Assembly: GCA_016841445.1 (NCBI GenBank)
Contig: JAENZD010000001.1
Location: 1,550,001 to 1,614,000, forward strand
Length of the DNA: 64,000 nt
Direction of reading: 5' to 3'
Source: Anaerolineaceae bacterium
Lineage (GTDB): Bacteria; Chloroflexota; Anaerolineae; Anaerolineales; Anaerolineaceae
A model generated the notes under the pieces. That model saw only the letters and a list, made by a program, of their open reading frames with translations, made no database searches and was not told where the DNA came from. Both the position numbers and the translations under genes were made by a program. Position 1 is the first letter of the stretch, and each line of letters opens with the position of its first letter. Below are positions 47,013-60,848 of this stretch, one piece after another.

Positions 47013-48275
47013 TTAAAATGTAATGGTGTCATCGGTACCCAAAGTCAGCCAATCCCGTAGTCGGGATTTAGCCAGGGTTTGTGCAACCCCATCAAGCATG
47101 CCCTCATCCTCACTCACCATTTTCTTAACAGAATCTTTGTAATGCCGCCACAAATCCCACAACCGGACTGGGTAAAAAAGGTAAATTCTTAATGATTTTG
47201 GATTGACATTATAAATCCGGGCAATGACCAATTTTGGAAGAAAAACCCTGTTAAAAATGAGCCCTAATTTTCCAAACAAACCCGTACTGGCTGACAGATT
47301 TGCGAGATCAGGTGTTACAACATGCCCAATTTGTTCGTCAAGGCGGATTTGCTTTCTGGCTTGATCGAGCAACGTTAGTGGAATTGGATCCACACGCAGA
47401 TTCTCAGTCATTTCACCTGGGACCGGAAAATCAAAAAATTCTTCCAGTAAATGAAATGTGAGGGTAACCACCTTTTGAGCCTGCCATGCCGCAGCCCGTT
47501 TACAAATGACATCCCAATCAATCCCATTTTGATATTTTTTTATGATCATGGCAATATCATACAAGCCGCGTAATCCAAGTTGCAAATTGTGCTGATAGGT
47601 CAGGTGAATGCAAAGATGGAGGAACAAATCTTCTATGCAAAGGCTCTTCGCAGCAACTCCGGCTATTTTTGCCGGGATGGCTCGCGTCCAAATACCTGCG
47701 GTATCAATGCTGAAAGGTTCATTCTCCTCAAGAAGTGTCCAATGAATTTCTACATAGCACGTCTCGCCTTTGATAAATGGTGGAACGTGCTTAATATCAA
47801 AATTCTCATCATTAATGTCAAAATAAGTCGTTGGTTGATAACCAAGCTCCCCAATGATAAGCAGTGCCTGTGGAATATCTGCTTTCCTGAGGAGAATATC
47901 CATATCAGACATTGTCCGCATACCGATATCCGGATATATATTCTCAATCAGAAATAAACCTTTTAAACCGGCAGCCTCAATCGCTGCCTGGGAAAACCGA
48001 TCAAAAATTGATCCTGTTTCATGAAATAGAAACGTGTTCCGGACGACATTGGAAAGGTAGACTTGTTTCATTTGCTCAAGGACAGACTCCGGAACGGAAT
48101 ACAGCGCTTCATTTGAATAGATATGTTGATAAATGATCGCTGTGACATGATGCGGCCCGGAAATCGCCAGCACTTCATCCCAATCCTCAATCGTCAATGG
48201 ATTGATAATATTTTCTGAGCCATTCCCTTGGATGGAATCAGATAGGATCTGGGTAATCAGTTGCGTTTTATCCAT
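47013..48275 (-). CDS. NTP_transf_5-type nucleotidyltransferase family protein
   Basis: A 420-residue protein of the uncharacterised nucleotidyltransferase family usually assigned to PF14907. Key elements: 'MRTMSDMDILLRKADIPQAL' with the catalytic Asp pair, 'YVEIHWTLLEE', and 'LFLHLCIHLTYQHNLQLGLR'. Members often occur in clusters for lasso and other modified peptides with PqqD-like and HPr-kinase-like genes, as here about 9-11 kb upstream, and in polysaccharide loci. It may transfer a nucleotidyl group to a peptide or carrier; this is unproven. A strong terminator separates it from the secreted-protein genes. Confidence 0.8.
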   Translation of the reverse strand: MDKTQLITQILSDSIQGNGSENIINPLTIEDWDEVLAISGPHHVTAIIYQHIYSNEALYSVPESVLEQMKQVYLSNVVRNTFLFHETGSIFDRFSQAAIEAAGLKGLFLIENIYPDIGMRTMSDMDILLRKADIPQALLIIGELGYQPTTYFDINDENFDIKHVPPFIKGETCYVEIHWTLLEENEPFSIDTAGIWTRAIPAKIAGVAAKSLCIEDLFLHLCIHLTYQHNLQLGLRGLYDIAMIIKKYQNGIDWDVICKRAAAWQAQKVVTLTFHLLEEFFDFPVPGEMTENLRVDPIPLTLLDQARKQIRLDEQIGHVVTPDLANLSASTGLFGKLGLIFNRVFLPKLVIARIYNVNPKSLRIYLFYPVRLWDLWRHYKDSVKKMVSEDEGMLDGVAQTLAKSRLRDWLTLGTDDTITF

Positions 48276-48423: not shown

Positions 48424-48870
48424 TTATTTAACAACCAGCGGGACAAAAGTCAGAAAATATTCACCAGTAAAAATCGATAGGTTTAAATTTTCATTCGTTC
48501 CACTTTGCCAGCTACCGCTTTGTTTAGCCCGTTCTCCACCGATGTAGAAATCAATGGGATCCCCTTCCATGCTCTCATCACCTGGAACACTAATGACATA
48601 AACAGTATCCCCATCATCAAATTCTACAACTGTAGAAGCAACCAACTCACCTTCAATCTCAGCCGTGATGATTGTTCCGGATTCAACATTTTCGCCATCC
48701 ACCTTCACTGTTCCCCAAAAGTAGGAGGGTGGGATTGGCGGTGATTCTGCAGCAACCCGACTTAAGTCCAGAGGCAGAATGATGAAGAATAAAATCAGAA
48801 AAAGTAATAGCTTCTTAAACAAAGGTATCATTTCCTTTATTTCATAATTTATAATAATACGATTTTTCAT
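48424..48870 (-). CDS. Small secreted protein, paralogue 3 of the PP-SSF domain family
   Basis: A 148-residue protein from the ATG at 48870, which overlaps the stop of the previous gene as ATGA; an inner ATG at 48831 starts closer to the signal peptide. After the signal (…LSRVAAES) comes one domain of about 90 residues beginning 'PPIPPSYFWGTVKVDGENVE' and containing 'VYVISVPGD' and 'SGSWQSGTNENLNLSI'. The same domain opens the two proteins encoded upstream. It ends FLTFVPLVVK, a hydrophobic PL..K tail also seen at the end of the beta-helix protein at 30310. I do not recognise a named family. Confidence 0.75.
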   Translation of the reverse strand: MKNRIIINYEIKEMIPLFKKLLLFLILFFIILPLDLSRVAAESPPIPPSYFWGTVKVDGENVESGTIITAEIEGELVASTVVEFDDGDTVYVISVPGDESMEGDPIDFYIGGERAKQSGSWQSGTNENLNLSIFTGEYFLTFVPLVVK

Positions 48871-49685
48871 AATAAATCTTGATCTGGTTTTGATCGCTTT
48901 CTCAAATACCAGGCTCCTAATCCAATACACCCCAATCCAATTACTGCAAACCCAATCACAGTCCAGATTCCGGACTTACCTTGTGTTAACCTTGAGAAAA
49001 AATCATCCCGGTCACCTGATGAAGATTTTGAATTATCAGTGAGTTTTTCACCAGCCCCAACCTGGGTCTGGATTAGCTTTGATTTTTCAAATGACTCCGA
49101 TAATAAATCTTCCGTAGCTGAGGCATGGGTATCTTCCTTGCTTATTTGCTGGGTTTCTACGGGCAGTGGTGTGTTTGTTGCAGCAGGCTGATTGGTTTCA
49201 ACAGGTTCCTGGGAAATCTTTGCTGTCACTGTCAAGGCAGGCACTGTTCCCGTTTGAGTTTTTTGAGGAGCGCTGGTTGGGGTAGCGGTGTTAGGGGTTG
49301 TATTCGTTGTTATCGTCAGGTCAAGCGCTACACTCGTCCCGGATTGCCAGGTCGCCGTTTGGTCTGCTAGCTGCCCATTGACTTGGAATGAAATAACGCT
49401 CCCCTGCTGCGCACCTTCAACCACTGCCGTGCCTGGGTCATCCCCAGGCACGATTAATGAGTAAACAGAGTCACCTTGGTAGAGTTCGATCGTTGACGTC
49501 GCGTACACCTGGTCGCTAATCAGTGCCTGGATGGTCGTTCCTGCCGGCAGATTCGCCCCATTGAGCCTGATACGCCCATGAAAACTGGACGGGAGCGGTG
49601 GGAAAGCCTGCACAACGCCACCAGGCACCAAGGTAACCGCAACGATCACGATCATAATAATGGTAATGTACTGATAGACTTTCAT
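48867..49685 (-). CDS. Secreted, C-terminally membrane-anchored protein, paralogue 2
   Basis: A 272-residue protein: signal peptide (about 1-28), the shared domain (about 29-125; 'PPLPSSFHGRIRLNGANLPA', 'VYSLIVPGD', 'ATWQSGTSVALDLTI'), a long Thr/Pro/Gln-rich linker and a C-terminal membrane segment (about 237-260) with a basic tail (RKRSKPDQ). This is a type I surface-anchored layout. It is homologous to the genes on each side. No LPxTG-like sorting motif is visible. The stop overlaps the next start by 4 bases. Confidence 0.78.
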   Translation of the reverse strand: MKVYQYITIIMIVIVAVTLVPGGVVQAFPPLPSSFHGRIRLNGANLPAGTTIQALISDQVYATSTIELYQGDSVYSLIVPGDDPGTAVVEGAQQGSVISFQVNGQLADQTATWQSGTSVALDLTITTNTTPNTATPTSAPQKTQTGTVPALTVTAKISQEPVETNQPAATNTPLPVETQQISKEDTHASATEDLLSESFEKSKLIQTQVGAGEKLTDNSKSSSGDRDDFFSRLTQGKSGIWTVIGFAVIGLGCIGLGAWYLRKRSKPDQDLL

Positions 49686-49735: not shown

Positions 49736-51343
49736 TTAGTATGCCACGCTCCACGTTGTATCTGCCGTGACATAGACCCAGTAGCCTAAGCCGAACTCAA
49801 TCGACGTCAGGTCGCTGACATAAACAGGGGCGTCTGGATCATACAGTTTCCATAGGTTGGTCACATCCGAAGCATCATAACCATAGACCAGTGAAAGTTC
49901 TGTCATACCGGTAAACGCTGTTGAAGATGAGACGTTCGTTGATGACGGGAAGCCGACCAGGTTCCAACCGCTGGCAGCAGTCAGCAGGTCAATATCGGTG
50001 TTGGAAGGCATGAAACCTTCCACGCTCAATACCTGGTTTTCTACTGCCGTCAGGTGGATCCAGAGGCCCATATTTTCATCAATGGCTGTTAGCGTATCGG
50101 TGGTTGCCGACACGTTATCATAGATCATCCAGTTCCCGGAACCGCTGTGAGCGCCAGTGGCATCCCACCCATAAACCAGGTCAAAATCACCATCAATGGA
50201 TGCCAGCACATCAGCCGGATCCGTACCGGGATAGGGCTGCAGGTTGAATGAAACCAGGTTCCAGCCGGGTACCAGCGTAATGTTATGCGTTGTATAGATC
50301 ACAAGGGTGCCGCTGTTGGATCCAACGTAATTGTTGTCTGTGATTGTCGCCACAACGGCGTAGGTGCCGGTTTCCGAAGGCTCTACCGCAGAGCCGTCAT
50401 ACGTAACCGTGTAGGATAAGCTTGAGGGGACTGTCGTTACAGACACACCCTTCGGGTTACCATCATAGACCTGCTCCAGGTTGCTGAGGGTCACGCTGGC
50501 GGCTGCCGGTGAAATCACCAGTGTTCCGCTGTCTGAACCCGAATATAACGGATCGTTAACGGTGGCAACAACCGCGTAGCTGCCCGCATTGGTTGGTACT
50601 GTGGCTGAGCCATCATAGGTCACATTGACGGTCAGCCCTGGTGGATCCGTGGTCACTGTAACAGGTTTTGGATCACCATCATAAGTTTGTGCCAGGTTGC
50701 TGAGGGTCACAGTTGCACTTTGTTTTGAAACATTAACGGTAGCGCTTGCAAATCCCACACCACCCTGGCTGTCCGTTACCATCAAGCCAACGGTGTATGT
50801 GTCAGTCGATGAGAATGCGTACGTTGGCTCCTGCGCGGTGGAATCATCGTATTGACCGTCATTATCCAGATCCCAGGCATAGTCAAACGTATCTGACCCC
50901 AACCAATCTGTTGCAGAACCGTATAAAGTGAAGGTTTCACTGACCGCCACATCATAAGGCCCGCCGGCATCCGCTTTGGGGGGATGGATATTCAGGCTGA
51001 CATTCGAACCCGAAACCCAGTTTGCAATGGCAACAACCCTGCCGCCGATCTCAAATGTGACTGTCGCTGGGTCAGTGCCGTTAGCATATTCCGGTACCTT
51101 GATCGAATAAACCAGGGTGCCAGAATAATCAATGATCGTCGCGCTGACAACCGCCGACGTCTCAGCGTCAAGAAACGCGTCAATCGTATCACCAGCCGAT
51201 GGGCCGCCATCACCAGCCATAAAGTGGATTTCACCATAGAAGCTGGACGGTGGGTCAGGGGGTAATGCATTAGCAATTGATGTACTTCCTAATAATAGAA
51301 CAAAAATAAATACGAGCATCGTGATGGGTCTAAATTTCTTCAT
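49736..51343 (-). CDS. Secreted PKD/MBG multi-domain protein, paralogue 1
   Basis: A 535-residue secreted protein. Signal peptide; shared family domain ('PPDPPSSFYGEIHFMAGDGG' onward); a PKD-like Ig fold ('ADAGGPYDVAV...DLDNDGQYDD'); two MBG-type domains of about 75 residues ('VTLSNLAQTYDGDPKPVTVT' and 'VTLSNLEQVYDGNPKGVSVT'); and at the C-terminus a pair of GWNLV modules ('PGWNLVSFNLQPYPGTDP', 'SGWNLVGFPSST'). The same GWNLV pair ends the C25 peptidase upstream. Probably a surface adhesin or scaffold. I chose the ATG at 51343 because TGAGGAGA precedes it. Confidence 0.85.
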   Translation of the reverse strand: MKKFRPITMLVFIFVLLLGSTSIANALPPDPPSSFYGEIHFMAGDGGPSAGDTIDAFLDAETSAVVSATIIDYSGTLVYSIKVPEYANGTDPATVTFEIGGRVVAIANWVSGSNVSLNIHPPKADAGGPYDVAVSETFTLYGSATDWLGSDTFDYAWDLDNDGQYDDSTAQEPTYAFSSTDTYTVGLMVTDSQGGVGFASATVNVSKQSATVTLSNLAQTYDGDPKPVTVTTDPPGLTVNVTYDGSATVPTNAGSYAVVATVNDPLYSGSDSGTLVISPAAASVTLSNLEQVYDGNPKGVSVTTVPSSLSYTVTYDGSAVEPSETGTYAVVATITDNNYVGSNSGTLVIYTTHNITLVPGWNLVSFNLQPYPGTDPADVLASIDGDFDLVYGWDATGAHSGSGNWMIYDNVSATTDTLTAIDENMGLWIHLTAVENQVLSVEGFMPSNTDIDLLTAASGWNLVGFPSSTNVSSSTAFTGMTELSLVYGYDASDVTNLWKLYDPDAPVYVSDLTSIEFGLGYWVYVTADTTWSVAY

Positions 51344-51403
51344 TGGTGTCTCCTCATAGAACAATTTGATTGGGGTAGCGATGGGTAAATAATTCTCATT
51401 TCA

Positions 51404-54400
51404 TTAAGGTTGATCATAGGCTATCGTCCAGGTGCTGTCAGACGATACATTGATCCAATAGCCCCAGTTGGGGGTAATTTCTATTAGGTTGTTTGCATAG
51501 GAAGGCGCAACAGGATCATATGTTTTCCAGGGCTCAGTTTCATTCGCATGAAATGCCATCACCATGCTGTAATCGGTCACACCGTTGTCACTCAGCGCGC
51601 CCGGCAACGTTACCGGATCCATCGAGGGATAGCCCACAAGGTTCCAACCAGTACGCAAATTGATGTTGGTCGTTGTGGGGGGCATGCCTGAGACCACAAA
51701 CGTATCCGGTGCTGACATAAAAACCCAGAAGCCCATCGTGTGATCAAGGGCGTTCAGGTCACTTACATAGGAAGGCGCAGCAGGATCATACAGCAGCCAC
51801 GTTTCAGTTGTGGCATCCCAGGCATTGACCAACGTGTAATTCCCCTCGATCGAACTCAACACATCCGAAATCGCAGTACTGCTGGGTTGGAGGTTGAAAG
51901 AAACCAGGTTCCAACCGGTGTACAGTGGGATTGAGACTTGAGGAACAGAAGCCAGAACCGTGATGTTAACTGTTGCCTCGTTGCTGTAATTCACGCCGTC
52001 ATAAGCCATATATGTGAATGATGTCGTTCCAACGAAGTTATTCTTGGGTGTATAGATGAACGCTCCATTTTCTCCCAGAGATAAAGTGCCTTTATCCGGG
52101 TTGGTTACAAGGTATGTCGTAATTGGGGTGCCATTTGGATCATGGTCATTGCCAAGCACCCCTGGTGCAGAAACGGTCAGCACCTGGTTCTTTGCAGTCA
52201 CATACGCATCATCAACTGCAATAGGCGGAGTGTTGATAAAATTAACCGTCACGGTGACATGTCCGGTAGCTGTCAATGCCCCATCACTGAGGGTGTAATC
52301 ATAACCAGCCATACCTGTAAAATCAGTCGTGGGCGTGAATGTAACCGTTCCGGAATTCATGACAACAGTCCCATTGATTGGGTTACTCACACCTGTGATG
52401 GATAATTCTGCACTGGTATTATCAACATCTGTGTCATTAAACATCAGATCGTTTGCCGTCCGAGACACAGGTGTGTTTATTTCCGTACTTATTGCATCAT
52501 CTACAGCCACCGGTGGATCATTAACAGCTTGTAACGTAACATTGACTGTAATTTCATCCGTATAAGAACCATCTGAGACCCGGATGATAAATGAGTCAGA
52601 CCCATTGTAATTGGCGGCAGGTGAATATCCAATTACTTTGGAAGTTCCCGTACCTGATGCTGTTGCCGAACCATGCTGAGCCTGAGAGCTGACACTCCAG
52701 GTGATTGTATCCCCATCAGGATCTGTTGCATTCAGCGTCAGTGAGAAAGGAATCGGTGAGCCATCTTCTGACATGGTGACACTCACTGACGACCCCTCAG
52801 TGATCGCTGGTGGAGAATTGGTGCCATCAGGACGCACAATCTCAAGTGCCGGATCGCCAAAAAGAATATAGGTATCAAGCAAATCCAGTGCGCCGCCAGT
52901 GGACCATAACTCAAATTTTCCACGCATGGTTGCATCACCTAATGCCACTAACCCATCCTGGAAGAATGCCTCGAAAAAGCCGCCATCTAAATAAACATGC
53001 CCACTCGCCACACCTTCACCAGTGGAGGCCCAATTTGCGATGGTTCCTTTCCCTGAAGCACGTGGAGCTACTTCTGCAATGGCATCGATATCTGGGTTAT
53101 GAAATGACCCCGAGTAGCAGGTCATCTCCAGCATAACCGGCAGTTTGCCACCATTTGTCAGACCTGAAACATTTGATGCAGTAAAAAGCGCTGGATTACC
53201 CCAAACAGTATATCCCCCATGACCCATATAATTGACAATCAGCTTACCCGAATTAATGCCACTGAGAATAGCCTGGTTGGCTGCTGTCGAGGTGCTATGT
53301 GTCACAAGATAATAAACCTTTTCGGAGGTATAAGGAGCAGAAATATAGGAGTCAAGCAGATTATCTGACATTCCTGGAAAATCACCTGCATAATCCGGGT
53401 CATCAGCAACAGCCAGGATCTGCTGCTGCCAATCCCCTGGAATAGGATTCGTTTCATAATCAATGATCTTGTTGACTATGATATTTGCTTCCGTGGCATT
53501 ATTAACAGCCAGGCGTCCGATCATCATATCCGGTAGGGTATCCCCACCGACAATCGTGACATACCTGTTATCCGCTGCGGTTTCACCCATCCATGGGTCC
53601 ACCGGGAGGAGATAAGGTGGAATAAAGCTTGTTTTCCCAAACCCATAATACTGCTTAGGGTCATAGTGCCCATCACCCACCAGAACCACATAAGATGGGG
53701 CAGGTGTCCCCCACGTATTATAAGCATAAGACAGGAAATCATGGATGGGTTTGGCCCCAACAATACCATAATTGAATTCATCATAAATATCCTGAACATC
53801 AATCGTAATGGTGCGCATTGTGTCTGAGCGATAACTGCTCAAGGCGACGGACTGGGTCCAAAAGGTCTCATGTGTAATCACAATGAAATCTGCCCCATTT
53901 GAGGCGGAGAACAGGTCGGATGTCGAATCCAGTTTAATTTCCACAACGGATAGGTGGGTTGTATCTGTCAATGCCCAATATCGTGTTAGCTCTGACACTG
54001 TATCCTGGAAATTTACATAATAATCACCGCCTGATGGCGTGGTGCTAATATTTGCAATCGAAACCACACCCGCCGGGTCGGTAATGTCGTAAACTTTGAC
54101 CTGGTCTGATGAAAATCCATCCACTGAAAACTGCCAAGTTCCTGATGCTTCATATGCAAAATCCAATTCGTTGGTGTTCGCAGAATAGCGATTGGGATAA
54201 TCTAGATGGATGTAATCGATCAAGAACCAGTCAGAAGTTGCGCCTGTGTCGGCAATGCTCCGAACCTCGACACTATTGCTGCCATTTTGAAGCACGCCTT
54301 GTGGGATTTGTAAGGTGGATACGGACCACTCCTGCCCATCAAACAGCATATCCCCAATCGCAGTAGAGTTAATGAATATCCGAGCATGATGATCAGGGTT

Positions 54401-55876
54401 AATGGCATAAGTATTGTTCCAACCAATCAATGAGACGGAAATTTCCGCAGGGACATCGCCTGGATCAAGCGCACCGGTGAAAGGGTCTATTAATGTGAAT
54501 GTGTGGTTCCAACTTGAGTTATAGGTCGGTGCAAAAACGTAATCCCACCACCAGCGTTCCTCATCATCGTCAAAAGGCATGGATGACCGGTAAGAGTTGT
54601 TCTCCTCCATGTGAAGTTGGGCAAAATAATACGCTGGGGTAGATGCGGTTCCAGGTGTACCATCCCTGGTTCCAACCCGAGCGCCCTGAACAACGCCTGC
54701 CTGTTCATACGTCAACCAATAAATATTATCTTCTGTATATTTGGATTTGATCCCTTCACCAAAAAACAGGATAGTGTCCCCGGGGTCAAAAGATCCATCT
54801 CCCTCGCCAACCACCTCAATTCCGATTTCATTTCCCAGGTAAAACATCTGAAATGTACGCGGGTCAAGGGTGTCCACAGGGATTCCCAACGCCCCTTCTG
54901 AAAGTTCAGCATAGGTGATTTTGTAAAAACCATCTTCTTTTACGGTGATGCGGTAGCCCGGATCCGGTGGCGCCCATGGGATCGGCGCACCTACAAAACT
55001 CTGGCTCAACCCTTCGGAATCTAACCGTTCAAACGCTGATTGGGTTAAGGATCTAAATGATTTGGCTGACTCATAATTTAATAGCGACCCAGCTAAGAGA
55101 TCCTCAAAAACAGGTGCATCCAGCGAAAATGTCTGCTGGGATTGAGTAAAACTCCCGGAAAATTCAACGCTGACCTGCATTGACTCGTAAATGATCAATT
55201 GGTTGTTTAAAGGATCATACTGAACAGGGTATGTAGAAACACCGACCACACGCTGCTGGCGTAAATAGCCATCACCTGTTATCTCTGCCATCACCCCGGG
55301 ATACAATGACTGCCCATAATAAACGTCTGAGTCTTCAATATACAACAATTTCGGTTCTTTATAAGAGGAATTTTCAAATAAATCTGTTGATGAGTTCCAA
55401 TCATCCATCTGGGTTGCAACAGGCAGAACAGGCACTTCCAAATGGATCATATGCTGCTTGCCAGGTATGACCTGCAATTCAACTTCAGCACCTAAAGGCA
55501 CACCAATCTGTTCGATTGCGATCGGTAGTTCCGGCATGCCCGGTGTTAATGACTCTGACCAACCTGTCAAGGAAGGTTTGATATACTGCTTGCCTTCAAC
55601 ATCCACAGATTCGAGGGTCAACTGTTCCCAGGGAAAACTGACTGTGAAAGAAAGACCTGAAGAATCCGCAGCCTGGAGCTCTGCAACCGACTCCATTTGT
55701 TCGCCTTCATTTTGGGTTTGAGCGAGCGGCAAATCAGAACCTGCAGAATTCTCCTTTGAATTGTTGGGAAACGCTTGAACAGCAGTTTCCAGTCCTGGAA
55801 TGCAATTCAGGAGGACTGTAAAAAGGAATAATATGGCGATAACGAATGATCTTGTTTCTGCGATTTTTGATTTCAT
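51404..55876 (-). CDS. Very large secreted C25 (gingipain-like) cysteine peptidase
   Basis: A 1490-residue protein. Signal peptide; an N-terminal propeptide-like region of about 300 residues; a C25-type catalytic region with 'YVVLVGDGHYDPKQYYGFGK', the His in 'NYMGHGGYTVWG' and the Cys in 'VMLEMTCYSGSF' (Cys codon 53117-53119). Three cadherin/Big-type repeats follow ('NDPPVAVDDAISTEINTPVS', 'NTPPIAVDDAYVTAKNQVLT'), then two GWNLV modules. Gingipains are exported by type IX secretion in Bacteroidota; here their C-terminal domain is replaced, so export and anchoring must differ. I chose ATG 55876, at the signal peptide, over a longer frame to 55945. Confidence 0.85.
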   Translation of the reverse strand: MKSKIAETRSFVIAILFLFTVLLNCIPGLETAVQAFPNNSKENSAGSDLPLAQTQNEGEQMESVAELQAADSSGLSFTVSFPWEQLTLESVDVEGKQYIKPSLTGWSESLTPGMPELPIAIEQIGVPLGAEVELQVIPGKQHMIHLEVPVLPVATQMDDWNSSTDLFENSSYKEPKLLYIEDSDVYYGQSLYPGVMAEITGDGYLRQQRVVGVSTYPVQYDPLNNQLIIYESMQVSVEFSGSFTQSQQTFSLDAPVFEDLLAGSLLNYESAKSFRSLTQSAFERLDSEGLSQSFVGAPIPWAPPDPGYRITVKEDGFYKITYAELSEGALGIPVDTLDPRTFQMFYLGNEIGIEVVGEGDGSFDPGDTILFFGEGIKSKYTEDNIYWLTYEQAGVVQGARVGTRDGTPGTASTPAYYFAQLHMEENNSYRSSMPFDDDEERWWWDYVFAPTYNSSWNHTFTLIDPFTGALDPGDVPAEISVSLIGWNNTYAINPDHHARIFINSTAIGDMLFDGQEWSVSTLQIPQGVLQNGSNSVEVRSIADTGATSDWFLIDYIHLDYPNRYSANTNELDFAYEASGTWQFSVDGFSSDQVKVYDITDPAGVVSIANISTTPSGGDYYVNFQDTVSELTRYWALTDTTHLSVVEIKLDSTSDLFSASNGADFIVITHETFWTQSVALSSYRSDTMRTITIDVQDIYDEFNYGIVGAKPIHDFLSYAYNTWGTPAPSYVVLVGDGHYDPKQYYGFGKTSFIPPYLLPVDPWMGETAADNRYVTIVGGDTLPDMMIGRLAVNNATEANIIVNKIIDYETNPIPGDWQQQILAVADDPDYAGDFPGMSDNLLDSYISAPYTSEKVYYLVTHSTSTAANQAILSGINSGKLIVNYMGHGGYTVWGNPALFTASNVSGLTNGGKLPVMLEMTCYSGSFHNPDIDAIAEVAPRASGKGTIANWASTGEGVASGHVYLDGGFFEAFFQDGLVALGDATMRGKFELWSTGGALDLLDTYILFGDPALEIVRPDGTNSPPAITEGSSVSVTMSEDGSPIPFSLTLNATDPDGDTITWSVSSQAQHGSATASGTGTSKVIGYSPAANYNGSDSFIIRVSDGSYTDEITVNVTLQAVNDPPVAVDDAISTEINTPVSRTANDLMFNDTDVDNTSAELSITGVSNPINGTVVMNSGTVTFTPTTDFTGMAGYDYTLSDGALTATGHVTVTVNFINTPPIAVDDAYVTAKNQVLTVSAPGVLGNDHDPNGTPITTYLVTNPDKGTLSLGENGAFIYTPKNNFVGTTSFTYMAYDGVNYSNEATVNITVLASVPQVSIPLYTGWNLVSFNLQPSSTAISDVLSSIEGNYTLVNAWDATTETWLLYDPAAPSYVSDLNALDHTMGFWVFMSAPDTFVVSGMPPTTTNINLRTGWNLVGYPSMDPVTLPGALSDNGVTDYSMVMAFHANETEPWKTYDPVAPSYANNLIEITPNWGYWINVSSDSTWTIAYDQP

Positions 55877-55979
55877 ATCTTTATTTCTGATCGTTCCACT
55901 AATTAATATTAATAAGACATCGAACAAAACATCACTTGGGCACACTTTGAATTAATCGGTTGCGATGAACTCAATCAAA

Positions 55980-56053: not shown

Positions 56054-56986
56054 TCATGCCCTGATGATCAGCGGCCAGGGGTCAGAACCAATTTGATAGC
56101 TAAGTACAAAGCCTGGCACTTGTTTTGAAAGTTTCTCCAAACGATCAAGGATACCTGGCATCAAATCCTGGCGATAAAATGGAACAAATGCTGTTTGGAG
56201 TATTCGGGTTACGCTTTCAATGGGTTTTATCAAAGACACACCTTGCTTATCATCTCGATCCAGGAAAAACAATTTTTCCAGCGGTACGCCTTGGGGCGAG
56301 CACATCACAGGGTCCTCGTGCCACGGTGTTCCAAAAATCCAGAAACGACCATTCAGATAGCGAAGGATGACCTGGTCCTCACCTAAAACGGTGACTGCAT
56401 GATTTCGTAGCAATAATGATGCCAAAGTTGACTTTCCTGCGCCAGCTTTTCCAGCAAAGACATAGCCGTGACCATCGACGTTCACACCACTGGCATGTAA
56501 AATAACATCCCCCGATCGAGCCAGCCAATTAACAAACAACTTCATGTCCATGTTCAGCAAGGGATAGAAACCCGAATTTTCCCACTCAGAAAAATCCCCA
56601 ATGACCTCTCCGTGTGAAAAATCACCGTTGATGATCATCCGCCGTTTAGGTGGGATTTGCAGAGTATCCAGAATAAAATTCCCATGTCCGTCAAATTTAG
56701 CAGTCCAATTATCGGTTTGAAAAATCAGGTCGAGTCCTTCAGATTTGGGTTGGATTGAAAGGTTTTCATTCTTAACCTTTAGCGCCAACTGATCTCCTTC
56801 CCCTGATAAATTATTATCATTCTGATTAAACAATAAAAAAGCCTGTGGATTAGCCACAGGCTTGAGGAATTTCTCATAGCAGTTTGGTGTAATAATTTTT
56901 AAATTAGCACCTTTTGCATCAAGTTTCAATCCTAGCCCAGCGATTCCAAGAAATATTTGGTTAATTTCCTTCTCACCTACAATCAC
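56054..56986 (-). CDS. HPr-kinase-like protein of the peptide cassette
   Basis: A 310-residue protein with the Walker A GKAGAGKST (residues 179-187) in an HprK-type context: 'LHASGVNVDGHGYVFAGKAG' and 'VLGEDQVILRYLNGRFWIFG', 'TPWHED'. The N-terminal 150 residues are unlike HprK and may bind the peptide. In lasso-peptide clusters such kinases phosphorylate the peptide tail; in other radical SAM cassettes their role is unknown. The start is GTG with GGAGA upstream. Inside the gene (residues 42-50) lies a terminator-like hairpin. It follows the precursor-peptide gene by 114 bases. Confidence 0.8.
   Translation of the reverse strand: MIVGEKEINQIFLGIAGLGLKLDAKGANLKIITPNCYEKFLKPVANPQAFLLFNQNDNNLSGEGDQLALKVKNENLSIQPKSEGLDLIFQTDNWTAKFDGHGNFILDTLQIPPKRRMIINGDFSHGEVIGDFSEWENSGFYPLLNMDMKLFVNWLARSGDVILHASGVNVDGHGYVFAGKAGAGKSTLASLLLRNHAVTVLGEDQVILRYLNGRFWIFGTPWHEDPVMCSPQGVPLEKLFFLDRDDKQGVSLIKPIESVTRILQTAFVPFYRQDLMPGILDRLEKLSKQVPGFVLSYQIGSDPWPLIIRA
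56835..56863 (-). terminator. Intragenic terminator-like hairpin near the 5' end of the HprK-like gene
   Basis: AAGCCTGTGG and CCACAGGCTT form a perfect 10-base stem with a 5-base loop; on the coding (minus) strand the stem is followed directly by TTTTATTG. It lies 123-147 bases into the gene. Confidence 0.6.
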
Positions 56987-57064
56987 AAATTAAGATCTCC
57001 AATATAGATTTTAATTTTTCATAGCTATACAATTCCAAATTGTCCTCACCACAAACTAGGTTGG

Positions 57065-57122
57065 GGATCCAAACCTGCAGATCAACGATGGGTGAAGCAA
57101 TTAATCCCTGCAGTTTGGATCC
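57065..57122 (-). other. Long hairpin over the 3' end of the precursor-peptide gene
   Basis: GGATCCAAACCTGCAG (57065-57080) and CTGCAGTTTGGATCC (57108-57122) pair over 15 bases with one bulge; the loop of 27 bases holds the stop codon. No T-run follows, so it looks like an mRNA-stabilising or processing structure rather than a terminator. Confidence 0.6.
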
Positions 57123-57259
57123 AAATAACATGGTACGGGAGAACCAACGGATCTCGGCGTGGCATCATAGCTGGTATGGCAAGTCGCAAGCACAGCGTTC
57201 TTGATCTCTAATCGAACCCTTTTGACAACTGGTGCTTCATAGGTTTTATTGTTCTTCAT
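57101..57259 (-). CDS. Putative RiPP precursor peptide (52 residues, Cys-containing)
   Basis: Translated by hand between the radical SAM and HprK-like genes. It begins MKNNKTYEAPVVKRVRLEIK and continues NAVLATCHTSYDATPRSVGS then PVPCYLDPNCRD before TAA. The ATG has an excellent GTGAGGAG site 8 bases upstream. The first part is basic with YxxPxxxxxxL, the kind of motif that PqqD-like domains bind in leader peptides. The second part (from about residue 26) holds all three Cys (27, 44, 50) plus Pro/Ser/Thr, as in a modified core. It lies 11 bases after the radical SAM gene. The boundaries of leader and core, and any cross-links, are inferred. Confidence 0.75.
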   Translation of the reverse strand: MKNNKTYEAPVVKRVRLEIKNAVLATCHTSYDATPRSVGSPVPCYLDPNCRD

Positions 57260-57270
57260 AATACATCTCC

Positions 57271-58356
57271 TCACAAAATCTCATATTGCTTCTCGTAATT
57301 GTCAGCAAACGTATGCGCTAAATTACAAATAAATTCAAACGGGGTCTCATTACTGTTATGCACAAGCTGAGACCACCCCGGGCATTGTTCACAATAACCT
57401 TTGATTGTACAAGTATAACATGCATTGACTTCCGTGCGTTTAAGTTTGCGTAATAGACCAATTTGGTCCCAAGCATCCTTGAATCCATATTCCAGGACAT
57501 CAAACGCAGTCCGTCTTGCCATCATACAAATACTTAACTTCCCTGCACTATTGATATGAAAGGAAGTTAATCCTGCCCCGCAGCGATAAACAAAATCATT
57601 CCTTGAAGTTCTTCCCCTAGCCATTTCTGCCAGTCTCATTCTTTCATCTCGCCGCTCAGGTTCCTCTTCATCAAGGCCAATTAAATCCTTGATTGGAATC
57701 TGGTAATCCAATGGTGATAGATCGCCATCTAATCTAGGCCAAAGTATACCATCATATCGATATTTTAATCCAAGTCCTTCAGTAAAAGAGCGCATCGCAT
57801 CCAACTCTTGATAATTCTCGATGTTCAGCGTGGTTTTTAGGTACATCGGGATGTTTCGTTCCAAAAGCAGCTCAATCCCTTTCCTAAGCCTGGCATAGGA
57901 GCCGGGTAATTGGGTTACCCGTTCATATGATTCCTGGGTGCCACCGTGGAGGGAAATTTCCACGGATAAAGGACGCCATTCTGCAAATAAATCGGCAATC
58001 TCAGGTGTCAGCAGTGTCCCATTTGTAAAAACCGTGACGATGATCCCGCGTTGGATCGCATGCCGGTAAATTTCCGAAAAATCCGGGCGCAGCAGCACCT
58101 CACCACCTGTCAGGTTCAGGAACAAGGTCCCTGCATCGGCAACCTGGTCCAGGATTTCTATCACCTGGGCTTTGGTTATCTCTTTTTCCCGGGCGTTTTG
58201 GCTTCCTGCTGGCTGGTTGATATAGCAATGTACACAGTCCAGGTTGCAACGGTCAGTAAGCTCAAATGAACCGCTGAATGGATGGCGCGATTCTTTCCGT
58301 GAGATTAAAACATCCCACTGGGAAAGATCGATCTCAGGGAGACCCGGACACGTCAT
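57271..58356 (-). CDS. Radical SAM/SPASM peptide-modifying enzyme
   Basis: A 361-residue enzyme. The radical SAM motif CNLDCVHC (Cys37, 41, 44) lies in 'FELTDRCNLDCVHCYINQPA'; the C-terminal third has SPASM-like auxiliary cluster Cys residues in 'YRCGAGLTSFHINSAGKLSI', 'CMMARR' and 'CYTCTIKGYCEQC'. SPASM enzymes act on peptides or proteins (sactionine, ranthipeptide, PQQ, mycofactocin types). The neighbours, a PqqD-like protein 3 bases upstream and a Cys-rich small peptide 11 bases downstream, point to a peptide substrate. GAGAGG precedes the ATG. Cytosolic. Confidence 0.9.
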   Translation of the reverse strand: MTCPGLPEIDLSQWDVLISRKESRHPFSGSFELTDRCNLDCVHCYINQPAGSQNAREKEITKAQVIEILDQVADAGTLFLNLTGGEVLLRPDFSEIYRHAIQRGIIVTVFTNGTLLTPEIADLFAEWRPLSVEISLHGGTQESYERVTQLPGSYARLRKGIELLLERNIPMYLKTTLNIENYQELDAMRSFTEGLGLKYRYDGILWPRLDGDLSPLDYQIPIKDLIGLDEEEPERRDERMRLAEMARGRTSRNDFVYRCGAGLTSFHINSAGKLSICMMARRTAFDVLEYGFKDAWDQIGLLRKLKRTEVNACYTCTIKGYCEQCPGWSQLVHNSNETPFEFICNLAHTFADNYEKQYEIL

Positions 58357-58359
58357 TGA

Positions 58360-58647
58360 TCAAACCTCTCTAAGTGCGCCAATAGATGTCATTTCATCCA
58401 GGAAGCGTTCAATATCTTTCGCCAGAATTTCGGGATCCACATCATATTCCTTGAAAATCGTCACCTGAAGGTCTGTTTGCGTGGCTGGTTTCGCCAATCG
58501 CTCCCAGATATCTGCCCCAACGCTGTTTAAAGTATAAATACTTTCCATATTGGCAACATCCTGACGGATCGGAACCAGGACAGATTCATCCACAATTTTG
58601 CGGTAGATAAAATCCGGATTCCGTTGATAATGTATCTCTTTTTTCAT
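58360..58647 (-). CDS. PqqD-like RiPP recognition protein
   Basis: A 95-residue protein of the PqqD family. The winged-helix pattern is 'YTLNSVGADIWERLAKPATQ' followed by 'VTIFKEYDVDPEILAKDIER' and 'FLDEMTSIGAL'. PqqD-like domains (RREs) hold the leader of a precursor peptide and present it to the radical SAM enzyme. Its gene precedes the radical SAM gene by 3 bases, and GAGGAA lies ahead of the ATG. No fusion to a larger enzyme. Confidence 0.9.
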   Translation of the reverse strand: MKKEIHYQRNPDFIYRKIVDESVLVPIRQDVANMESIYTLNSVGADIWERLAKPATQTDLQVTIFKEYDVDPEILAKDIERFLDEMTSIGALREV

Positions 58648-58659
58648 TTAGCCAGTTCC

Positions 58660-59163
58660 TCAGGTCAGAAATTTTCTGAAAACCGGAATCTTTTTAACCA
58701 ATCGAACGAACAGAGCTGAGAAGCCGTTCCGGCTAAAGTTTGATTTGGATCGCATTACAGCAAACCGGTTTAAGATCTTGACACTCAACAAGTCCATCTC
58801 AAAGCGATTTCTATCACGTTCAACCACTGACAAGCGCCCGAGAATCTTTTCTCGTGGAATCCAGCCATCGGGTTGTGCTGCCTGGTCTCCCTGTATCTTG
58901 TACTGCATTCCGTTTGCGGTATTTCTCCTGCGGATCACTCGATGGACAACCACATCTCCGGTCTGGGAATTGAATAGCACCACATCACCAACTCGGATCT
59001 TTCCATCTTGAAAAGGTTCTAACAGGAGGATATCGTCGTTCCGAACCAGGGGATACATACTGGTGCCCTGCGCCCGGAAGCGCAGGGACTTACCCTGTTG
59101 CAGCAATTCTTGGCTCAGTGCAGCAAAGGCATCTGAGGTGCAAGAAAGGCTGGTTTTTTTCAT
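58660..59163 (-). CDS. ER/archaeal-type signal peptidase I (S26B, SipW-like)
   Basis: A 167-residue peptidase-like protein. The nucleophile Ser35 is in 'GTSMYPLVRNDD' and the base is His74 in 'GDVVVHRVIRR', the Ser-His arrangement of ER and archaeal signal peptidases and SipW, not the Ser-Lys of bacterial LepB. The usual N-terminal membrane anchor is not seen; the C-terminus is weakly hydrophobic, so it may be cytosolic-facing or use another anchor. Many PqqD/HprK peptide cassettes include this S24/S26-type protein; it may cut the peptide leader or the secreted protein encoded upstream. Start overlaps the previous stop (TAATG). Confidence 0.82.
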   Translation of the reverse strand: MKKTSLSCTSDAFAALSQELLQQGKSLRFRAQGTSMYPLVRNDDILLLEPFQDGKIRVGDVVLFNSQTGDVVVHRVIRRRNTANGMQYKIQGDQAAQPDGWIPREKILGRLSVVERDRNRFEMDLLSVKILNRFAVMRSKSNFSRNGFSALFVRLVKKIPVFRKFLT

Positions 59164-60848
59164 TATTTATATTTAAAAGGTGTTACCGTCACCTCAATCG
59201 GGCCAGCTAAAATCTCATTGCCGGAGGTACTCACACCCTCAAGCCAGTAGAAATAGGTGTGATTGGGCAGCAAGCCACGCTTGGGGCCCAGATCCATGAA
59301 TTCATAATCTCCAAGGGGACTAAACCCGACAACCTCATCGTTGACCTTAATTCGTGGTCCGTCTTCAGAAGTTGCACGCCAGAGATTATATCCTTCGATG
59401 CCTGTTTGATCTATTGCGGTCCACTCGAGCTGTGCAGATTTGAATTTCGGGATTGCTGTGAACCCGTCAATTTGAACTGAAGTTGGATAAATGATATCCT
59501 TGGGTTCTTCATCCCAGTTATCTGCCAGATCCAAATCGCCGCTTACCGTGGTCAAATCAACCCGGTTCATCACATCATAACCGGTTGGTGAAAGGTAAGT
59601 TGGGAGGCATTCAGTGGCAACAGACGTTGCGGGCAGTACTTCATGAATACCTTCACATACCGAGCCAATGGGTACACCAGACACTGCCTTTACAAGATAT
59701 GTAATCGTAATGGTATCCAATTCAGCCATCTGAAGCAGATCACACGTTATTGTCCCACCAAGTCCATCCGTATCGTCATCAACCCAGGTACATGTCCGAA
59801 GACCGCCCAGGTCATCGGAGAGGGTAAGTGAGTCCATATACATAACCCATGGATCCAGTGTATCTACAACAACGACCTCATTGGCAACGTAATCGATTAA
59901 ACTGTCACCTTCAGTCGCTGCTGTTACAACAATGGTGTTCATCCACGTTGGCGTATACAAACCATCCACATATTTATACAGCGGCATGCGTACATCGTTA
60001 TCATACTTGTACACGTTCAAGTTAACCGGTGCTGGTTGAAAATCGCCCGCGCTTGTGATGGGGTTGGTTTGATTGCCGGTGCTGATCGTATCCGGAACGC
60101 CTGGAGGCGCAGGATTCGTATATGCTTCCTCTAAAGCAACCTGGATGTTACCTGTCACTTTAGGATTGCCGTCAGTTGGTGCACAATCCAAAACCGTCCA
60201 GACTTCCAACACAACCTCATCGCCATTATCGAGTCCGTCAACCTGGAAGATTGCTTCAAATGCTACATCATCACCTGGAGCGGGACTTGGATCTCCACCA
60301 CTGTCGACCCAATATTCATCCAATAATGTGGCCGTCGCATCGGTGCCCGTTACTTCAATTGTTGCAGGGTCCGTGTAATCAACAAACGCAGAATAGATCA
60401 TGACGTCTTTATTGAAGCCAAATTCAGAACCGCTGGTTGTCTCGGTCCCCCAGGAAGCTCGCATAACGATCGAACCATTCTCCGGGGTGGTGACGCCATT
60501 CACCGTGATATAGAAGAAATATGGCACGATCTGGCACCTCGCCATATCGGAAGGTTGTAGGGATGGGTCACCCTGGTAGTCGGCATCATTGTCCATGCCA
60601 ACGGCATTCCCATTTGCACGTCCAACCAAAACTGGCGGAACGGTATTGGTTATACCTCCCGTACCCGGATAAGGAATATCGGGGATATAGTCATCCGTGT
60701 CACCAGCTCTAAATACAATGGAGTATGATCCGGCAACGGCTTGAACGTCCTTCACCTTCCCTACTAAACCGAATACCAGACTTAATAATAAAATACTAAT
60801 AAGCAGACCAAAAAACATGGCCCATTTCTTACCAATCTTTTCAAACAT
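59163..60848 (-). CDS. Large secreted protein preceding the signal peptidase gene
   Basis: A 561-residue protein. An N-terminal membrane segment/signal (about 10-35) with a cleavage-like 'VQAVAGS' is followed by beta-rich, Asp/Thr-rich domains and a C-terminal fibronectin-III-like module ('IDGFTAIPKFKSAQLEWTAI', 'YNLWRATSEDGP', 'NHTYFYWLEGVSTSG'). The middle has 'DTLDPWVMYMDSLTLSDDLGG', which resembles DUF11-like repeats. It is a probable cell-surface protein and a candidate substrate of the SipW-like peptidase next to it. The ATG at 60848 has AGGAGG; the GTG just before it is less likely. Codon stop overlaps the next start by 1 base. Confidence 0.78.
   Translation of the reverse strand: MFEKIGKKWAMFFGLLISILLLSLVFGLVGKVKDVQAVAGSYSIVFRAGDTDDYIPDIPYPGTGGITNTVPPVLVGRANGNAVGMDNDADYQGDPSLQPSDMARCQIVPYFFYITVNGVTTPENGSIVMRASWGTETTSGSEFGFNKDVMIYSAFVDYTDPATIEVTGTDATATLLDEYWVDSGGDPSPAPGDDVAFEAIFQVDGLDNGDEVVLEVWTVLDCAPTDGNPKVTGNIQVALEEAYTNPAPPGVPDTISTGNQTNPITSAGDFQPAPVNLNVYKYDNDVRMPLYKYVDGLYTPTWMNTIVVTAATEGDSLIDYVANEVVVVDTLDPWVMYMDSLTLSDDLGGLRTCTWVDDDTDGLGGTITCDLLQMAELDTITITYLVKAVSGVPIGSVCEGIHEVLPATSVATECLPTYLSPTGYDVMNRVDLTTVSGDLDLADNWDEEPKDIIYPTSVQIDGFTAIPKFKSAQLEWTAIDQTGIEGYNLWRATSEDGPRIKVNDEVVGFSPLGDYEFMDLGPKRGLLPNHTYFYWLEGVSTSGNEILAGPIEVTVTPFKYK

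Follow-up and report, generated by a model that had tools for sequence, protein, structure and literature searches.

A probably undescribed family of peptides with proposed radical SAM and kinase tailoring, often encoded beside C25 peptidases, in an Anaerolineaceae genome and in distant phyla

Introduction

What is made by a run of six genes in which the frame of a 52-residue peptide lies between a radical S-adenosylmethionine (SAM) enzyme and a kinase-like protein? The run occupies positions 60848-56054 on the minus strand of the window, by which we mean the whole 64,000-nucleotide stretch analysed here (positions 1,550,001 to 1,614,000 of contig JAENZD010000001.1, from an Anaerolineaceae bacterium, assembly GCA_016841445.1). 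An earlier note on this DNA had proposed an undescribed cassette for a ribosomally synthesized and post-translationally modified peptide (RiPP). With a precursor family, a conserved neighbourhood and no curated model that matches, that proposal gains strength, and we consider it highly probable that the cassette represents an undescribed RiPP family in which radical SAM chemistry would be combined with tailoring by a lasso-type kinase and tied to C25 peptidases; the chemistry and the role are what we infer from the genes.

The gene run and its precursor family

The six genes follow one another with intergenic gaps of -1 to 114 bases. These gaps, and every gene type that the earlier note named, were found in place, although it had counted five genes where there are six:

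59163..60848, minus strand: secreted protein; hydrophobic segment at residues 11-29; C-terminal domain FN3-like by eye
58660..59163, minus strand: S24/S26-type (Ser-His) peptidase, candidate leader peptidase; Ser35, His74 and Asp93 conserved; without membrane segment
58360..58647, minus strand: PqqD-like leader-binding protein (RiPP recognition element, RRE), 95 amino acids; PF05402
57271..58356, minus strand: radical SAM/SPASM maturase, 361 amino acids; PF04055
57101..57259, minus strand: precursor peptide, 52 amino acids; Y7-x-x-P10; Cys27, Cys44 and Cys50; C27-H-T-S30
56054..56986, minus strand: HprK/PEPCK-fold kinase; H164, K185 (P-loop) and D204 conserved; Glu203

The case for a RiPP begins with the peptide, whose gene (57259-57101) has a GGAG before its ATG. 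It has no family match in NCBIfam or Pfam, and 31 aligned relatives compared with curated families gave single weak matches only, the best at E 0.012. In many of the stretches fetched from other genomes, a short frame 3' of the enzyme gene carries the pattern K-x-Y-x-x-P ... V-x-L ... [AV]-[VI]-[LM]-x-x-C, and M1, Y7, P10, L17 and Cys44 are invariant across 18 aligned peptides. All 52 precursors have YxxP, WxxP or FxxP (YxxP in 48), usually followed by a spacer of 16 residues, and the distance from the Tyr to the first Cys is 21 residues in 33 of the 52; at least two cysteines occur from the first-Cys position on in 51 of 52, and the core sequence is highly variable behind the conserved leader.

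A precursor profile, rebuilt stepwise, was run against the 17,922 short frames taken from 120 loci and gave 50 matches at E < 0.01; 48 of the 50 lie within 1.5 kb of the enzyme on the same strand, a count biased towards proximity because the rebuilding used matches near the enzyme. In a genome-wide version (a 32-row profile, six frames, 298 genomes of the same class, at most 21 candidates scored per genome), matches occurred in 28 of the 298 genomes, all of them inside the set of 48 that also have the enzyme, for which chance would be about 1e-26; the nine matched genomes without a row in the profile likewise all fell inside the enzyme set (chance 4e-10), both figures treating genomes as independent, which they are not. 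By this conservation the 52-residue peptide is more than a chance frame, and is a member of a precursor family that stands beside this enzyme in other genomes. A recognisable precursor gene adjoins the enzyme in 52 loci, and the cassette thus has the leader and core beside a modifying enzyme by which RiPPs are recognised.

An alternative 52-residue frame at 57131-56973 was rejected: it has no NCBIfam or Pfam family match and no precursor-profile match at E up to 10. An RNA hairpin within the 114-base gap was likewise discarded (z-score -0.03), as was a defence system, since PADLOC matched nothing but the radical SAM core, at 59 bits to viperins. Three further loci (L054, L056 and L091) carry WxxP precursors with leader ends resembling PQE/PEEAVLTxCK, accompanied by a peptidase and several radical SAM genes; no C25 match was found in them, and this precursor type looks like a sister RiPP family.

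Distribution and conservation of the neighbourhood

The enzyme was searched for in the same 298 genomes, and at E 1e-30 or better at least 48 have a match, a lower bound set by scoring no more than 6 candidates in each genome; 40 stretches, the window's own region among them, were fetched and read, and a wider sample took the 80 best loci from a scan of named genomes. Cassettes with a precursor at E 2e-9 or better occur in Chloroflexota, Thermodesulfobacteriota, Myxococcota, Omnitrophota, Nitrospinota, Aminicenantota, Verrucomicrobiota and Kiritimatiellota, and one cassette in Bacillota has a precursor at E 1e-6, all these values coming from a profile to which the same precursors contributed. 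Because nearly all of the genomes are metagenome bins, individual phylum assignments could be mistaken. Phyla are intermingled in the tree of 52 enzymes, a pattern suggestive of transfer from one phylum to another.

Neighbours were counted in 52 loci, which come from at least eight phyla: a PqqD-like gene lies within 2.5 kb of the enzyme in 48, an HprK-like gene in 44 and a C25 gene in 32, in every case on the strand of the enzyme (48/48, 44/44 and 32/32); these counts, and those given below for the S24/S26 peptidase and PF14907, are lower bounds, since 14 of the 52 stretches have less than 2.5 kb on a side. Locus L074, from the same record as L038, was left out of the tree, the kinase test and the 52-locus counts, and the 52 retain weak rows whose precursors scored E > 0.01 (L049, L072, L085 and L108) or E 0.0055 (L149). 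The earlier note had held that the idea would fall if related genomes lacked the neighbourhood; comparison of gene order across relatives shows it conserved far beyond the genus.

The maturase and the leader-binding protein

The enzyme passes PF04055 with 92.3 bits, and its CxxxCxxC motif and C-terminal Cys set show little or no variation across 19 aligned sequences. Its comparison with curated models covers the best 25 of 73 NCBIfam matches, of which MftC is the best (107 bits over stretch 26-323) and far under its cut-off; the heme enzymes AhbD/NirJ2 score about equal to MftC, with their best stretch in the radical SAM core, and also lie far under their cut-offs. By profile, the nearest solved structures are SkfB, a sactipeptide maturase, followed by PqqE. 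Grouping with a family of known non-peptide substrate, the other outcome that the earlier note had set against its proposal, is thus neither borne out nor dismissed by the scores, the heme enzymes equalling MftC among the models and the peptide-modifying SkfB and PqqE coming nearest among the structures. Since the heme-enzyme scores are as high as that of MftC, sequence alone settles neither substrate nor bond type. The precursor and the PqqD-like protein speak for a peptide substrate, and thioether bonds are the preferred guess because of the cysteines in the core, two or more in nearly every precursor.

The PqqD-like protein passes PF05402 (51.5 bits against a cut-off of 23.4), and its nearest curated model is lasso_PqqD_Bac, at 36.8 bits of the 80 needed. 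PMC12710340 describes the RREs of FusE, McjB, PqqD and StsC as binding W/Y/LxxP/L/I, and PMC5067487 describes PadeB1 as holding the leader tightly and presenting it to the next enzyme. By eye, the PqqD domain is fused to the enzyme in L047. Elsewhere in the window's genome (L162:5205-7763; C3, ~1471-1474 kb) there are two tandem radical SAM genes, the first of which overlaps a PqqD match.

The kinase and its possible target

The HprK label of 56054..56986 falls under every sequence cut-off. Its structure model (predicted local distance difference test, pLDDT, 89) matches HprK/P over residues 159-310 with Z ~11 and a root-mean-square deviation of 2.7 Å, and aligns with PEPCK along the greater part of the chain (238 residues, Z 13). 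Judged by the modelled fold together with the P-loop and a conserved His, the kinase is a member of the HprK/PEPCK superfamily, so that the label HprK-like, given earlier from sequence, finds its support in the fold of a confident model. His164 and Lys185 are present in all 47 aligned rows; of the His/Lys/Asp/Asp set reported for lasso kinases, the window protein has His164, Lys185 and Asp204, with Glu203 where most relatives have an Asp that may be one of the two in the motif.

This glutamate goes together with a change in the precursor. Glu203 is present in 8/8 kinases of the window's clade, and Asp stands there in 35 of the remaining 38 (D-D in 29); precursors outside that clade (n = 43) end in Ser in 35 cases and Thr in five, those inside it (nine rows, support 99/94) in Ser in none and Thr in one. 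For the kinase over 46 rows (the 47 aligned less L074) the Fisher p is 0.00018, a value that ignores descent and reflects about one event within the window's clade. In a count of labels on the tree, from which 11 rows ending in neither Ser nor Thr were excluded, terminal Ser was not clustered beyond shuffles (119 of 500 were as low). A C-x-x-S follows the first Cys in 9/9 precursors of the window's clade as opposed to 7/43 elsewhere. From these sequences we read a shift of the kinase target in the window's clade; a possible alternative is loss of the kinase's function there. As for precedent, PMC9266682 describes PadeK as phosphorylating a conserved C-terminal Ser and PsmN as adding hexoses to the phosphorylated Ser.

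A further gene, absent from the earlier note, belongs to the neighbourhood: a PF14907 nucleotidyltransferase, of the type known from phospho-glyco-lasso clusters. It lies downstream of the C25 gene in both sampled same-genus genomes as well, and in L079, L080 and L081 (three loci, two other phyla) the peptidase next to the kinase carries a fused PF14907 domain. In another part of the window's genome (L161:6005-11175; C3, ~330-335 kb), PqqD-like, HprK-like and PF14907 genes surround three genes that look by eye like glycosyltransferases, with no match there to the radical SAM or precursor profiles.

The C25 peptidase and other neighbours

Downstream of the kinase, and still on the minus strand, the following features complete the set; nucleotide-sugar genes also adjoin the cassette.

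51404..55945, minus strand: secreted C25 peptidase (gingipain/PorU type); C25 propeptide, Ig/cadherin-like repeats; His909 and Cys943
49736..51364, minus strand: secreted MBG/PKD-repeat protein, context; adjoins C25 in both sampled same-genus genomes too
48424..49685, minus strand: two small proteins (48867-49685 and 48424-48930), secreted by eye, context
47013..48275, minus strand: PF14907 nucleotidyltransferase, candidate tailoring enzyme

The C25 domain passes PF01364 (281.3 bits, cut-off 23), with the PorU model at 267 of 420, under its cut-off, and His909 and Cys943, which we take to be the catalytic pair, occur in all 33 aligned C25 proteins. With C25 genes in as many as 203 of the 298 genomes of the class, their presence carries little weight and adjacency is what matters. 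The window's genome and both sampled same-genus genomes have one C25 match each, always adjoining the cassette. Probed with the catalytic domain alone and no repeat domains, as in all the locus counts, C25 was found in 33 of the 52 stretches. It is downstream of the kinase in eight of the nine loci of the window's clade, the ninth (L035) being a 3.5-kb contig, and in a clade of 10 rows that spans at least five phyla it is directly upstream of PqqD (in L047, of the fused enzyme), within 465 bases in 10/10. Proximity on either side of the enzyme recurs in Chloroflexota, Thermodesulfobacteriota, Aminicenantota, Verrucomicrobiota and Kiritimatiellota. Treating C25 as mere setting, as had been done, sits badly with a gene on the same strand within 2.5 kb in 32/52 loci; from these positions the peptidase looks like part of the system.

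Several features of these proteins deserve record. L059 has C25 at the end of its stretch, outside the catalytic-domain counts, and in L082, L083, L084, L087, L088 and L095 the domain is at or near the C-terminus of frames of 1,686-3,212 amino acids (some of them truncated where the stretch ends) that lie just 5' of PqqD. By eye, the window's C25 protein (51404-55945) and the MBG-repeat protein (49736-51364) have in common a C-terminal 'GWNLVSFNL ... GWNLVG' module, possibly a surface-attachment domain. The C-terminal domain of the secreted protein that begins the run is common to proteins beside other cassettes; its structure model is poor (pLDDT 44, five sequences).

The S24/S26 peptidase

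Alone among the cassette proteins, the S24/S26 peptidase reaches a curated equivalog cut-off (TIGR02228, 57.2 against 51.85), and it also passes PF00717. Ser35 is present in 38, and His74 and Asp93 in all, of 39 aligned sequences. No hydrophobic segment was found in it (best 19-residue Kyte-Doolittle mean 0.97), so it looks soluble; with the SipW model at 27.4 of 190 and this lack of a membrane segment, the earlier description as SipW-like is doubtful, though Ser35 and His74 are there. Since the genome has no match at E 0.001 to the C39 peptidase (PF03412) or the lasso B2 protease (PF13471), this enzyme and C25 are left as the apparent candidates to remove the leader. In L079 (3892-5973, by Pfam) and L100 (4547-5578, by eye) the peptidase is fused to a GNAT acetyltransferase domain, hinting at acetylation as an extra step.

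A proposed pathway and what weighs against it

Starting from the gene set, the precursor family, the conserved order and strand, the active-site residues and the kinase fold, we infer each chemical step, export and the role of C25 as follows. The PqqD-like protein would bind the YxxP leader of the 52-residue precursor and hand it to the radical SAM/SPASM enzyme, which would cross-link the Cys-containing core, most likely through thioether bonds; the HprK-fold kinase would then phosphorylate one of its Ser or Thr residues. In most relatives this would be the Ser at the C-terminus; in the window's clade, which has lost that residue, it could be the one in C27-x-x-S30. A sugar or nucleotide may be attached to the phosphate by the PF14907 enzyme, like PsmN in pseudomycoidin. 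The soluble Ser-His-Asp peptidase would be the candidate leader remover, cutting near A25/T26, and the product would function extracellularly in concert with the secreted C25 peptidase that this gene run also encodes; it may, as the earlier note suggested, be a component of the cell envelope. In short, the cassette probably cross-links and then phosphorylates a small cysteine-rich peptide. A bolder version, which we hold to be rather unlikely, would have a RiPP family of at least eight phyla whose cross-linked peptide, phosphorylated and glycosylated by lasso-type enzymes, is a dedicated partner of the secreted, caspase-fold C25 peptidase: an inhibitor, a covalent adduct, or a group that C25 itself, as a PorU-like transpeptidase, joins to surface proteins.

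A number of observations count against parts of this pathway. The SPASM domain (PF13186) is under its cut-off, at 15.9 against 21.5 bits. The kinase step is the least sure in the window, since its precursor ends in Asp, with no terminal Ser or Thr, and its kinase has Glu203. PF14907 lies 9 kb away in the window and is within 2.5 kb of the enzyme in only 9/52 loci (on the same strand in 5/9), and the S24/S26 peptidase is that close in 30/52 (same strand in 26/30) and in only 4/9 loci of the window's clade. Cleavage near A25/T26 is a weak proposal, because only 33/51 precursors have a small residue (A, G, S or T) two positions ahead of the first Cys. No exporter was seen in the cassette, and when unlabelled neighbours were grouped by similarity an ABC-exporter-like group appeared in 8/50 loci. 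C25, finally, was not found in the stretches of 19/52 loci and so is not required everywhere.

Other products can be imagined for the same genes. The one we take most seriously, as possible if not expected, is a secreted antimicrobial or signal with C25 as its extracellular processing protease. The variable core after a conserved leader suits it, as does, by eye, a Lys or Arg three residues past the conserved Leu in 9/9 precursors of the window's clade, which a gingipain-like enzyme could cut; the cleavage specificity of gingipains fits such a site. Yet, by eye, Asp, Glu or another residue is usual at that position in the other C25 loci (L043 has Lys), nothing among the unlabelled neighbours is readable as immunity, and the exporter-like group is as infrequent as noted above. 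That the genes simply form a sactipeptide or ranthipeptide cluster of an already known family, as suggested by the SPASM-type Cys set, the Cys-containing core and the nearness of SkfB, is unlikely: among the matches compared, the curated models are far under cut-off (StsB 91/625, AlbA 70/850, PapB 64/340, SkfB 61/300), the precursors match no curated family well, and the kinase, PF14907 and C25 are not known to be part of these classes.

Quite unlikely, too, is an intracellular redox or structural cofactor like pyrroloquinoline quinone (PQQ) or mycofactocin, with the secreted proteins mere neighbours. MftC, the best NCBIfam match, does span most of the enzyme, PqqE is its second structure and the cassette is without an exporter, but such a cofactor would leave unexplained why C25 lies within 2.5 kb on the same strand in 32/52 loci, on either side of the enzyme and in five phyla, and the core varies strongly, as those of PqqA and MftA are not known to do. 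That HprK and PqqD serve polysaccharide or envelope regulation, the peptide being incidental, would agree with the adjoining nucleotide-sugar genes and with locus L161 and its glycosyltransferase-like genes; we regard it as very improbable, given that genomes with the precursor also have the enzyme and that the two genes keep PqqD and HprK beside them. The preferred reading thus remains an undescribed RiPP family with kinase tailoring and a C25 partner.

Significance and comparison with known systems

Similar gene sets in several distant phyla, many of them with a secreted protease nearby, seem to encode peptide products of an undescribed family, and we found no curated NCBIfam or Pfam model for the peptide family and no matching report of the gene combination among the papers listed by searches of the open-licence PubMed Central (PMC) literature. 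Term look-ups in PMC7470986, PMC10352776 and PMC4289311 gave no report of the combination, the last of them mentioning lasso clusters with an unexplained HPr kinase. The family has a compact, testable definition (YxxP, a near-fixed spacer, a Cys core, PqqD, a SPASM enzyme and an HprK-like kinase), and, since precursor end and kinase motif have changed together in one clade, the kinase target is open to a direct test. The recurrence of C25 suggests that such peptides are used with surface proteases, for which we know of no other RiPP example.

The NCBIfam cassettes SynChlorMet, GeoRSP and HPr-rel-A combine PqqD, a SPASM enzyme and/or an HprK-related protein. In the Pfam and NCBIfam comparison that the earlier note had called for, no component of theirs exceeded its cut-off in the window: ScmC scored 25.8/125, ScmD 20.6/100 and ScmE/F 75-78/400, the GeoRSP radical SAM model 69/400, and HprK_rel_A 21.8/200, HprK_rel_B 31/200 and PqqD_rel_X 15.4/35. 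Sactipeptides and ranthipeptides (SkfB, AlbA, StsB, PapB) have in common with the cassette a radical SAM/SPASM maturase, a Cys-containing core and an RRE, but differ from it in that here PqqD is separate, a kinase and a C25 partner are present, and scores are far under the family cut-offs.

Closer likeness is seen with the kinase-tailored lasso peptides paeninodin and pseudomycoidin, in the PqqD-type RRE, the YxxP-type leader and the HprK-like kinase, and likewise in the C-terminal Ser of most relatives of the window precursor, although not in the window's own clade; a nucleotidyltransferase occurs in both pseudomycoidin and the window, the likeness of PsmN to PF14907 being one of description. 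Lasso peptides differ in the B2 protease, not matched in this genome, and in place of their machinery there is a radical SAM/SPASM enzyme; in agreement with the earlier note, no Asn-synthetase-like lasso cyclase was found among the window proteins scanned with Pfam, the rest of the genome not having been searched for one. With the gingipains and PorU of type IX secretion, the window C25 has in common the catalytic domain with its conserved His and Cys and the C25 propeptide, whereas the C25 domains described here adjoin a RiPP cassette and, in some phyla, lie near the end of proteins of ~1,700-3,200 amino acids.

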